The notes below the pieces were generated by a model. That model was given only the letters and a program-made list of their open reading frames with translations. It was not told the origin of the DNA and did no database searches. Of a stretch of 29,091 nt of DNA, positions 9,391 to 12,177 are shown piece after piece; the first letter of the stretch is position 1, and every line of letters starts with the position of its first letter. The translations under genes were made by a program, and so were the position numbers. Origin of the DNA: a virus; the IMG/VR virus record IMGVR_UViG_3300006990_000117, positions 1 through 29,091 of that record; one strand, given 5' to 3'.

Positions 9391-9430
9391 GAAAAAACCC
9401 CCAGGGATTTCTCCTTGGGGGTTTTCTTTT
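9391..9430. terminator. Bidirectional rho-independent terminator between convergent arms
   Basis: Stem 9394-9407 (AAAACCCCCAGGGA) pairs with 9412-9425 (TCCTTGGGGGTTTT): 14 pairs with one G-T wobble and a 4-base loop. A T-rich run follows on the + strand (CTTTTATGTTTTC) and an equivalent run (TTTTTTC) follows on the - strand, so it can stop both the early rightward and the late leftward transcript. The + strand gene ends at 9390 and the - strand gene ends at 9429, so nothing else occupies this gap. Confidence 0.93.
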
Positions 9431-9656
9431 ATGTTTTCTTTTTTCTCTTTTTACCTGAAGCAGTGACTGACCAACTTACTCGTTTCGGTCCTGTCTTTTT
9501 CCTTGCTTCACTCTTAGATATTCGTGCGGCAACAGATTTAGGACGACATGCAGGGTAACCTCGTTTATCTTTCTTACCTGATCTACCACAAGGCTTACCT
9601 GTTTTAACGTCGATCCATTGCTCCCCGAACCATTTACCTAGTCCACCTTTAGCCAT
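9429..9656 (-). CDS. Small basic protein, DUF5872-like
   Basis: 75-aa strongly basic protein (GLGKWFGEQWIDVKTGKPCGR, later YPACRP, then KSEARKKTGPKR and a KKRKKKT tail). The GLGKWF...WID.KTGKPCGR...YP.CRP pattern is one I recall as an uncharacterised family (DUF5872) found in phages and large viruses; this is from memory and unchecked. Function unknown. It is the last gene of the late leftward operon, directly against the terminator. The high Lys/Arg content suggests nucleic-acid binding or a virion-associated role (inference). Confidence 0.8.
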   Translation of the reverse strand: MAKGGLGKWFGEQWIDVKTGKPCGRSGKKDKRGYPACRPKSVAARISKSEARKKTGPKRVSWSVTASGKKRKKKT

Positions 9657-9658
9657 GA

Positions 9659-9823
9659 CTATGCTTTCTTAACTCTGTTGTCCTTACCTTTCCAACCGCC
9701 ACCCTTAGATTTATACCACTTAGCAGCCCAAGCATTAGCATAAGCTGAAGGGTAGACCTTAAACTTCTTCTTTGCTTCTGATTTAGCTCGTGACCATAGT
9801 TTAGGGTTGGTTGGAGTAGGCAT
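9659..9823 (-). CDS. Small basic Trp/Lys-rich protein (54 aa)
   Basis: Reads MPTPTNPKLWSRAKSEAKKK, then FKVYPSAYANAWAAKWYKS, then KGGGWKGKDNRVKKA. A good GGAG ribosome site lies eight bases before the ATG, and the start shares one base with the previous stop (TAATG). The NPKLW...AK..FKVYPSAYANAWAAKWYK..GGGW pattern looks like a conserved phage mini-protein of unknown function. It is strongly basic, with aromatic residues spaced along a likely helix, so nucleic-acid binding is plausible. The two-base gap to the next gene fits the tight late operon. Confidence 0.8.
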   Translation of the reverse strand: MPTPTNPKLWSRAKSEAKKKFKVYPSAYANAWAAKWYKSKGGGWKGKDNRVKKA

Positions 9824-10110: not shown

Positions 10111-10362
10111 TCACCACTTCACTTTCGCAGCCCAGTATGCTGCACTCATTTTTCCCTTTTTAATGTTCTTAGCATGTCTAGCACGAAACGCTTTATTTCT
10201 TGCGCTACCTTTAGGACTGCCTTTGACACCTTTCTGACCGAATCGTATAATCTTTTCTTTACCATTTACACACGCCTTTACTACATGAGATTTACTTGGA
10301 TGATTAGGTGTAGTCTTAGGACTATTACATTTCATCTTAGCTTTGTTAAGCCTTGCTGCCAT
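10111..10362 (-). CDS. Small basic conserved phage protein (DUF6321-like)
   Basis: 83-aa basic protein with the pattern CNSPKTTPNHPSKSHVVKAC, then GKEKIIRFGQKGVKGSPKG, then KAFRARHAKNIKKGKMSAAYWA. This P..T..HP.KSHVVK......IRFG..G......FRARH layout recurs in many phages and I recall it as DUF6321 (unchecked). Function unknown; the RARH and Lys-rich segments suggest nucleic-acid contact. The ATG at 10362 has AAGGAG eight bases upstream; a GTG directly before it adds one residue. It overlaps the upstream lipoprotein gene by 17 bases. Confidence 0.78.
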   Translation of the reverse strand: MAARLNKAKMKCNSPKTTPNHPSKSHVVKACVNGKEKIIRFGQKGVKGSPKGSARNKAFRARHAKNIKKGKMSAAYWAAKVKW

Positions 10363-10720
10363 CACTCTTTCTCCTTAGTGTTGCTATTAGAGTAAGTAAA
10401 CCACGTCCCATTTCTTGTGGACTAGGGGCTAACCAACCTAGCACTAGAAGGATCAAGACCCACGGCGGTATCTCATTTATATTTATATTCTCTACGCTAT
10501 CTGTGTTTACTTTGTTTGTGTCGTTGCTTTGTTTCAGGTCACCTGTCAGTGTTTCGACTACCACCTCTTGATCAGAGTTGCTTGTAGTTCCAACTGTCTG
10601 AGAGTTGGTCTGCCCTGCCTGTACATTTGCTGCGACATTCGGTCCACCCCCACCTCCCAAGAGAAAGGACGGAATCTGAGAGCAACCAGACAGGAACAGA
10701 GCTAAGACTAACCACCTCAT
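10346..10720 (-). CDS. Lipoprotein with C-terminal membrane segment (candidate unimolecular spanin)
   Basis: 124-aa protein. The N-terminus MRWLVLALFLSGCSQ is a lipoprotein signal with lipobox L-S-G-C and acylation at C13. A Gly-rich and polar, probably extended, middle follows, then EIPPWVLILLVLGWLAP (about 84-99) as a membrane segment and a basic cytoplasmic tail. A lipoprotein anchored in the outer membrane that also carries an inner-membrane segment is the layout of unimolecular spanins (T1 gp11 type), which join the two membranes in the last step of Gram-negative lysis. It lies between a holin-like gene and small basic genes, near the endolysin. The spanin role is inferred from architecture; the periplasmic part is fairly short (about 70 residues). 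Confidence 0.68.
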   Translation of the reverse strand: MRWLVLALFLSGCSQIPSFLLGGGGGPNVAANVQAGQTNSQTVGTTSNSDQEVVVETLTGDLKQSNDTNKVNTDSVENININEIPPWVLILLVLGWLAPSPQEMGRGLLTLIATLRRKSDGSKA

Positions 10721-11037
10721 TTACTCATTGCCACCTTGTTACCCATAGGTTTACCTGCCATGTACGCAGTAGCACCCATATACGCTGCAACGATACCTGT
10801 CTGTGCAATGTAGAACAGACCTAGTAGATCAGCTAGTGCAGATACACGAGAGTCTGACATGATAGGTGTAAATAAGAACACAGTAAAGATAATCATCATA
10901 GCCATTGCTATCCATGCCATCTTCTTTTGTGACTCTGCTTTCTCTTCACGTAGCTCTATCTCAAGCATACGTTCCTTCATTGCTACTTCAGCTTCAGTGA
11001 TAACACCATCACCATCAATATCGAAGTCTACCACCAT
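10717..11037 (-). CDS. EF-hand membrane protein, holin candidate
   Basis: 106-aa protein. Near the N-terminus is a complete EF-hand calcium loop at residues 6-17 (DIDGDGVITEAE: D6, D8, D10, G11, I13, T14, E17). A charged helix (KERMLEIELREEKAESQKK) and two membrane segments (about 40-60 and 68-94) follow. Only one EF loop is present. The ATG at 11037 is used because AAAGG lies six bases upstream and the sequence before it (in-frame up to 11115) falls inside the neighbouring gene. Two membrane helices, small size and a place three genes after the endolysin make it a holin candidate. Calcium binding is predicted from the loop alone. Confidence 0.75.
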   Translation of the reverse strand: MVVDFDIDGDGVITEAEVAMKERMLEIELREEKAESQKKMAWIAMAMMIIFTVFLFTPIMSDSRVSALADLLGLFYIAQTGIVAAYMGATAYMAGKPMGNKVAMSK

Positions 11038-11039
11038 AA

Positions 11040-11498
11040 CTAACCTTTCATAGCGTACATCAGTAGTCCAAGACCACCGAAGAATATTAACAACAAGACT
11101 CCTGTAATAGACCAAGTGATTATGGACTCAATCATCTCTGCCTTACGGTACTCTTGATCTCTCTTTTGTTTACGAATCTTAGCCTCTGTACGCACTAATT
11201 CATCCCATGCTGAAGGACCATATATGAAACTAATATGTTGACGTAGCTCTTCACGCATAGCCTCTGCCTTACGCTTCGCATTCCAAACAGCGAGGGCTTC
11301 CTGTTCTACATCCCCGCTTATAGTCTTCCACCACGGTGGGTTGTTGGCCTTTTTCTCTGCTTGCCCTAGATCGGACATAGCACCTGCCCATTGAGATAAC
11401 TGACCATGCATATCTTGCAAGTCTTTACCAACCTGCAGCCCCTTCTTAATTGCGTTGAAGGCTACAGTCGCACCACCTATGATAGTCACTGGGTCCAT
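11040..11498 (-). CDS. Conserved phage protein with coiled coil and C-terminal membrane segment
   Basis: 152 aa, function unknown. It starts MDPVTIIGGATVAFNAIKKG and continues with charged helices (GKDLQDMHGQLSQWAGAM, NPPWWKTISGDVEQEA, NAKRKAEAMREELRQHI, YGPSAWDELVR, then KIRKQKRDQEYRK). It ends with a hydrophobic segment about 127-148 (WSITGVLLLIFFGGLGLLMY). I recall similar proteins in other marine podoviruses but not a function. It lies between two lysis-type membrane genes and joins the upstream one by a TAATG overlap. Possible roles are a membrane-anchored scaffold of the lysis system or a virion-release factor; neither is shown. Confidence 0.75.
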   Translation of the reverse strand: MDPVTIIGGATVAFNAIKKGLQVGKDLQDMHGQLSQWAGAMSDLGQAEKKANNPPWWKTISGDVEQEALAVWNAKRKAEAMREELRQHISFIYGPSAWDELVRTEAKIRKQKRDQEYRKAEMIESIITWSITGVLLLIFFGGLGLLMYAMKG

Positions 11499-11728
11499 TA
11501 TCTATCTCGCAATGCTTGCTCTATTGTGTCTAACTTGTTGAAGATTGCTTTGATTGTTTCTTTCATCTCTTTCATCTCACGATCATAAGATGTCTTAGAG
11601 GACTCATGTTGTGCTTGTATTACTGCAATGTCTCTTTCGTTCTTGTTTACTTTATTAAACAGAACCCAGACCACTACAATAATAGGAGCTACTAACCATT
11701 GCATGAATAGGTCTAACATCTCGTACAT
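11498..11728 (-). CDS. N-anchored coiled-coil membrane protein (candidate inner-membrane spanin or holin-associated protein)
   Basis: 76 aa. A single N-terminal membrane segment (about 8-25, FMQWLVAPIIVVVWVLF) is followed by a long charged coiled coil (NKVNKNERDIAVIQAQHESS to ETIKAIFNKLDTIEQALRDR). This type II layout matches inner-membrane spanins (Rz-like), which pair with an outer-membrane lipoprotein, and a lipoprotein gene lies at 10346-10720. XhlA-like proteins also combine a coiled coil and one membrane segment, but in the opposite order. It is placed immediately after the endolysin with a two-base gap. The role is inferred from architecture and position. Confidence 0.72.
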   Translation of the reverse strand: MYEMLDLFMQWLVAPIIVVVWVLFNKVNKNERDIAVIQAQHESSKTSYDREMKEMKETIKAIFNKLDTIEQALRDR

Positions 11729-11730
11729 GA

Positions 11731-12177
11731 TTATAGAACCTCGAAGTGTGGGGCATCAATGAAAGGTCTACGCCCTGCAGAACGACGAATGTCTATGTAC
11801 TCATTCATCAAGTCTTCTGCCGTACCGTCCCAATCATTAAGAGCCTTGTGCCATGCAGCACCCCAACGGATAGTGACTCCTAGTTCTTTTGATGCCTTGA
11901 GCATTGCATCAGCTATTTCGTCGTACAAGTTTAGTTCCCAACGACCACCATCAACCCACGCCATGAGGTCTACAGCGTTACCTTCGAGGTGCTTAGACTT
12001 CATGGTTTGTGATGCACCTTTAGCGACCAAGGCTTCCTGCTCTTGAATGGTACGTAGACCACAGATCACAGAGAAGTCCTGCTCAGATAGCTCAATGGCC
12101 CTCTCCACTACAGCTACTAGCCGTGGATTAACACCTTCAAGTTTCTGTTTACTTCGATTACCTAAAACGTATCCCAT
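11731..12177 (-). CDS. M15-family endolysin (L-alanyl-D-glutamate / D-Ala-D-Ala peptidase type)
   Basis: 148-aa zinc peptidase that cuts peptidoglycan cross-link peptides, like T5 endolysin and VanY-type enzymes. The zinc site is visible: SKHLEGNAVD (S61, H63, D70) and DAPHFE near the end (D141, H144). No signal peptide or SAR segment is present, so it needs a holin to reach the cell wall, fitting the adjacent membrane genes. A TAGGAG ribosome site sits before the ATG. Length is typical of single-domain phage M15 endolysins. Confidence 0.93.
   Translation of the reverse strand: MGYVLGNRSKQKLEGVNPRLVAVVERAIELSEQDFSVICGLRTIQEQEALVAKGASQTMKSKHLEGNAVDLMAWVDGGRWELNLYDEIADAMLKASKELGVTIRWGAAWHKALNDWDGTAEDLMNEYIDIRRSAGRRPFIDAPHFEVL

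Follow-up and report, generated by a model that had tools for sequence, protein, structure and literature searches.

Holins act as the clock of phage lysis, and what causes their sudden triggering is still debated. None is known to us to have a calcium site, and a search of the open-access literature found no description of a holin with a calcium loop or calcium site. In F1 mycobacteriophages, lysis is jointly controlled by a two-transmembrane (two-TM) protein with both termini inside the cell (N-in/C-in) and a one-TM protein (PMC13056207), while the calcium-switched phage endolysin LysGH15 has a calcium site of the pattern termed 'loop-F' (PMC4022735). In the window analysed here, the whole stretch of 29,091 nucleotides of viral DNA, a two-TM protein of 106 amino acids (aa) carrying an EF-type loop near its N-terminus is encoded among genes of lysis (Table 1).

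The minus-strand gene translates to MVVDFDIDGDGVITEAEVAMKERMLEIELREEKAESQKKMAWIAMAMMIIFTVFLFTPIMSDSRVSALADLLGLFYIAQTGIVAAYMGATAYMAGKPMGNKVAMSK followed by a stop codon, and a GAAAGG ribosome-binding site lies 6 nt ahead of its ATG. An upstream TTG start, giving 132 aa, was rejected, since in several homologues the matching ATG comes immediately after an in-frame stop and the longer frame is thus not the gene. The preliminary description had claimed two membrane segments and a fit to the EF-hand loop at every key position, and both claims are borne out: hydropathy places two hydrophobic segments at about residues 43-61 and 67-85, and the translated residues 6-17 (D-I-D-G-D-G-V-I-T-E-A-E) match at every position of the EF loop.

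Table 1. Position of the lysis genes in the window and of the parts of the calcium-loop protein
Feature	Position	Strand	Evidence
M15-type endolysin	11731..12177	-	phrog_465 endolysin 4.2e-52; Pfam Peptidase_M15_4 6.9e-5
76-aa protein, N-terminal TM and coiled coil	11498..11728	-	weak PHROG matches: Rz-like spanin 0.0018, holin 0.035
152-aa tail-anchored coiled-coil protein, one TM	11040..11498	-	phrog_32327; cluster comp0
106-aa calcium-loop two-TM membrane protein	10717..11037	-	translation, stop codon included; over 200 close homologues
EF-type Ca2+ loop DIDGDGVITEAE, residues 6-17	10987..11022	-	translation; conservation in homologues
Continuous helix, residues 15-56, charged exiting helix into TM1	10870..10995	-	AlphaFold2, pLDDT 75-87
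Second helix, residues 62-94, TM2 with small-residue face (GIVAAYMGATA)	10756..10854	-	AlphaFold2 model, hydropathy
Spanin, lipobox LSGC at N-terminus and C-terminal TM	10346..10720	-	NCBIfam NF037952 spanin2_3, 102.5 bits, cut-off 80

The genes of the operon are packed on the minus strand in the order endolysin, 76-aa protein, 152-aa protein, calcium-loop gene and spanin, with 2-nt gaps or overlaps of 1-4 nt between them, and the calcium-loop gene therefore lies three genes from the M15 endolysin, as had been reported. Since an M15 endolysin and a spanin share this tight operon, the term 'lysis block' is right for the window; it also suits most relatives outside the T4-like branch, but not the T4-like phages, in which the gene belongs to a tail block. 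The stop of the calcium-loop gene and the start codon of the spanin overlap, and the spanin, which also matches the PHROG Rz-like spanins (1.2e-5), appears u-spanin-like, being laid out as in single-protein (u-type) spanins. The 76-aa protein is possibly a BhlA/XhlA-like lysis accessory. A freshwater group of relatives encodes its mirror layout, a coil followed by a TM, at a similar place, and an XhlA/BhlA-like accessory may have been swapped between cassettes. Tail-anchored coiled-coil proteins of the same cluster as the 152-aa protein, or of a second cluster (comp10, 232 aa, from the freshwater group) which is homologous to it by hhalign, precede the calcium-loop protein in four lineages with lysis cassettes, and the 152-aa protein and the calcium-loop gene form a conserved two-gene unit. 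Downstream of the lysis block, positions 9429-9823 and 10111-10365 (minus strand) encode small lysine-rich proteins, two of them DUF5872-like and one P0003; other lineages, too, have relatives of these proteins next to the calcium-loop gene.

A chance origin of the loop was rejected by background reading frames, shuffles and codon data. The calcium-loop gene is the sole frame of the window with an EF-loop motif; the strict loop pattern was present in 6 of 14,403 open reading frames outside the family at the same loci, corresponding to 3.3e-4 per 106-aa protein, and shuffling the protein 200,000 times produced it twice. Among 69 distinct close relatives the codons of the ligands differ only synonymously, with no amino-acid change, GAT and GAC being used 38 and 31 times for D6, 58 and 11 times for D8, and 44 and 25 times for D10, a sign of purifying selection among these close relatives.

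Conservation of the loop in homologues, on which the preliminary description had itself staked its claim, was found on a wide scale. Among 304 unique members of the family, the complete loop (D1, D/N3, D/N5, G6, I/L/V8, E12) is present in all 301 that are untruncated and have the DxDxDG core, although these were located through that core, so that only I/L/V8 and E12 are free observations there. Two further members are cut by contig ends. Independently of the core, a query stripped of loop positions 1-11 returned 56 matches, two of them from a phiM12 query, and all 56 have the loop core upstream. In an alignment of 62 divergent members, which share 26-93% identity with the window protein, the invariant columns are D6, G11, E17, Q37 and A85, of which three are loop positions 1, 6 and 12; as members entered this alignment (A3) by a pattern with the D/N/G core residues and with D/E at position 11, those columns are biased, and position 12 was not selected. 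Across the family the loop ligands are kept more strictly than the membrane segments. The sole untruncated homologue found without the loop is that of Stenotrophomonas phage DLP_6 (locus L163, 2896-3342), which retains both TMs and its place after the gene 51 homologue, and which provides a natural variant for comparison.

Glutamate at position 12 of an EF loop favours Ca2+ over Mg2+, and its presence in all members with the loop thus favours Ca2+ here. Searched against the PDB, the profile of the family hits EF-hand proteins at 3e-10 to 1e-7, values summed over repeats, with no single stretch passing alone. The Pfam model EF-hand_1 scores 15.8 bits on the 106-aa protein, below its cut-off of 25.4, and EF-hand models match 52-53 of the 62 diverse members at E up to 0.1. 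The loop very probably binds a divalent cation, and very likely Ca2+ in particular.

The description as an EF-hand stands only in part. AlphaFold models were made of the window protein (mean pLDDT 76.8, pTM 0.46) and of a member of the T4-like branch (mean pLDDT 78.8, pTM 0.46). In both, the loop leads into a single unbroken helix that includes TM1, and TM2 follows after a short turn; at this pTM, how the two helices pack against each other cannot be relied on. The 12-residue loop with all key positions is there, but only five residues precede it in the 106-aa protein, and the models place no helix before residue 15 (window protein) or 22 (T4-like branch). With no entering helix, this is a Dx[DN]xDG loop with an exiting helix, or 'loop-F', rather than a full EF-hand; the 106-aa protein has the linear motif followed by a helix by which Dx[DN]xDG loops are recognised, for which an entering helix is not required. 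The members inspected have one loop per protein and no paired hands within one chain. A single loop lacking an entering helix may bind weakly. Comparison with solved structures and predicted viral folds gave no meaningful match to the protein beyond loop fragments of calmodulin, and no global fold match for the AlphaFold models.

Positive-inside analysis predicts that both termini are inside in all groups, which would make the loop cytoplasmic, so that high Ca2+ would be met only after the membrane leaks. Of the two routes by which calcium had been proposed to reach the loop, entry through a leaking membrane is compatible with this topology, but an N-terminus lying outside is not. The accompanying appeal to the calcium of sea water is not specific, since the freshwater Limnohabitans phage DC31 retains the loop and the outside Ca2+ level fails to predict its presence.

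The family is abundant in viral contigs and occurs in marine and freshwater phages. A first scan of viral contigs gave 230 close relatives, and further scans raised the members found to 535, of which the 304 above are unique. Proteins of the roseophage isolates CRP-1 and CRP-9 are about 94% identical to the family consensus, CRP-1 being described as an HMO-2011-type podovirus (PMC6918029). Distant relatives were reached with a consensus query: those of CRP-207, DC31 and the Sinorhizobium phages phiN3 and phiM12 matched at E up to 3e-4, whereas the matches in CRP-345, CRP-810, HTVC008M, the Melnitz phages and DLP_6 were weaker, at E 0.01-0.5. Most of these relatives are linked at 1e-7 to 1e-15 by queries with the proteins of HTVC008M, CRP-345 and DC31, while membership of DLP_6 and of the Sinorhizobium phages comes from the consensus query, with the shared loop as support for the Sinorhizobium proteins. 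The best library match of the 106-aa protein is PHROG 27150 (5.5e-12), which matches 29 of the 62 diverse members; NCBIfam gave no meaningful match to the calcium-loop protein. No prophage copies of the gene were found in bacterial genome contigs by the patterns used, and at that sensitivity the family appears to be phage-borne. In the family tree (104 columns, limited resolution) the members in T4-like blocks do not form one group, which suggests that the gene was transferred between unrelated phage lineages.

Gene neighbourhoods were counted over loci that had been dereplicated and that extend for 1.5 kb or more to either side of the calcium-loop gene, and most relatives outside the T4-like branch adjoin endolysins, spanins or a 3-TM holin. 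Loci of the window type include an endolysin in 36 of 37 cases and both endolysin and spanin in 35 of 37, and those of the DC31 type an endolysin in 48/48 and an Rz-like spanin in 47/48. An endolysin was found in 33 of 34 CRP-345-type and 17 of 25 CRP-810-type loci, and the 3-TM holin cluster in 27/34 and 25/25 respectively; this cluster mixes confirmed PF11351 members, such as the CRP-810 holin (2.5e-20), with phrog_2524 proteins that have no Pfam match. Most CRP-207-type loci have no recognised endolysin within 3 kb and mostly feature a TM-coil protein and a secreted protein, with a T4-like block in 7 of 35. In this type, a secreted protein encoded two genes upstream of the calcium-loop gene (L160, 2510-3295, cluster comp14) contains a degenerate EF-like stretch, DALSDGIITTDE, which is without the position-3 ligand. 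T4-like hub or tape-measure genes accompany the gene in 26 of 43 HTVC-type loci. The T4-like pelagimyophage relatives, unannotated to date, include those of Melnitz-3 (L166, 3959-4288, QZI95058.1) and HTVC008M (L162, 3959-4291). For Melnitz no holin was named, and a curli pore was proposed as the functional analogue (PMC9004378), which leaves room for the calcium-loop protein.

In all groups the protein is predicted to have the two TMs and N-in/C-in topology of class II holins, and an endolysin and a spanin lie alongside in the window and in most lysis-type loci, though not in the T4-like branch. No holin family was matched above cut-off (Phage_holin_3_6, 16.5 bits against a cut-off of 28.4), and the best holin-family match among the 62 diverse members was 9.4e-5. 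The suggestion that the protein is holin-like is consistent with its two TMs and topology, but the 3-TM holin next door in two lineages and the tail-block location in T4-like phages mean that it is not established as 'the holin'; where a 3-TM holin is adjacent, as in CRP-810-type phages, it would be at most a partner and not the only holin. The best reading of these sequences is a calcium-responsive holin or co-holin, and a direct function in lysis is rather probable. In its fuller form, the favoured explanation is an inner-membrane protein of the lysis machinery, class-II-holin-like alone or as a partner, whose genuine Ca2+ loop senses leaks; as a whole it is put forward tentatively, at somewhat below an even chance.

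According to this explanation, cytoplasmic free Ca2+ during infection would be sub-micromolar and the acidic loop empty and disordered. With the first lesions or the loss of membrane potential, Ca2+ would enter from the periplasm (millimolar in sea water) and fill the loop, neutralising its negative charge and capping the long helix. The filled loop would then tighten or rearrange membrane oligomers, leading to abrupt triggering and release of the endolysin, after which the spanin, translated from its overlapping start codon, would finish the outer membrane. We infer that Ca2+ is bound in vivo, that lesions are formed and in which direction calcium acts on them; that calcium acts as a trigger or modulator of lysis is speculative, and its likelihood lies between low and modest. 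A stronger version, in which the loop gates the lesion, influx through the first leaks gives positive feedback and all-or-none lysis, and the same calcium-gated holin serves unrelated marine and freshwater podoviruses as well as T4-like pelagimyophages, is unlikely.

A structural role for the loop, with Ca2+ or Mg2+ bound permanently to cap or rigidify the helix or to dimerise the N-termini without any sensing, is the alternative that weighs most, although it too is on the unlikely side. The anatomy of a loop and an exiting helix is that of stabilising Dx[DN]xDG loops (PMC3123361), and retention of the loop in the freshwater branch, by which the outside Ca2+ level fails to predict its presence, would suit it. 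Against it, there would be little free Ca2+ on the predicted cytoplasmic side, the invariance of E12 speaks for Ca2+ even though Mg2+ is abundant, and a plain helix cap would be expected to have been replaced in more members than DLP_6 alone. It is a good deal less probable that the protein is a holin antagonist or timing factor, restraining a separate holin until entering Ca2+ lifts the restraint. In favour of such a role are the 3-TM holin directly downstream of the gene in CRP-810-type and part of CRP-345-type phages and the one-TM partner upstream in four lineages, but in window-type and DC31-type cassettes the calcium-loop protein is usually the only small protein with at least two TMs, spanins aside, and with no other multi-TM holin candidate usually nearby there would be nothing obvious to restrain.

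The T4-like location bears on a further explanation, in which the protein helps to assemble the virion, serving the tail hub or tape measure as a chaperone or as a platform anchored in the membrane, and came to lie beside lysis genes in podoviruses. In HTVC008M, Melnitz, phiM12, phiN3 and DLP_6 the gene is flanked by the baseplate hub gene 51 on one side and on the other by the tape measure or what stands in its position, and the T4-like block of the HTVC-type loci points the same way; the open literature yielded no phiM12 virion proteomics. The short-tailed relatives argue the other way, with the gene in endolysin-spanin operons and no tape-measure neighbours, as does T4 gp28, which occupies the matching position before gp29 and has neither a TM-like segment nor any similarity; homology to gp28 was accordingly rejected (hhalign probability 0.1%). 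This explanation is given a small likelihood. The location is the main fact that the leak-sensing mechanism leaves unexplained by itself, while being compatible with a late membrane protein that may be encoded anywhere in the late region. Late operons often contain genes for membrane takeover or superinfection exclusion, and the protein could be one of these, merely sharing the operon; tight linkage to endolysin and spanin across several divergent lineages, and in the window the overlap with the spanin start codon, make this very improbable.

With its abundance and its strictly conserved loop ligands, the family turns a divalent-cation signal in lysis triggering into a testable question, gives a testable role to a 'hypothetical protein' of many environmental phage genomes and offers a candidate holin for pelagimyophages such as Melnitz. 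In relation to known families, PHROG 27150 has a length of 139, which is the length of the phiM12 and phiN3 proteins, and leaves about half of the diverse members unmatched. GTA_holin_3TM (PF11351) is likewise a short late membrane protein beside the endolysin, but with three TMs, no calcium loop and no homology it is a neighbour and not a relative. The CHAP endolysin LysGH15 of a staphylococcal phage has a similar 12-residue EF-type loop with an exiting helix and no entering helix (PMC4022735, PMC3123361); LysGH15, however, is a soluble enzyme, whereas the calcium-loop protein fuses the loop to a membrane hairpin. Class II holins of the lambdoid S21 type and LysF1a-like proteins (PMC13056207) resemble the family in size, in their two TMs, in predicted N-in/C-in topology and in having endolysin neighbours, but they have no detectable homology to it and no known calcium loop, whereas the family adds a predicted cytoplasmic Ca2+ loop followed by a charged helix of roughly 25 residues.
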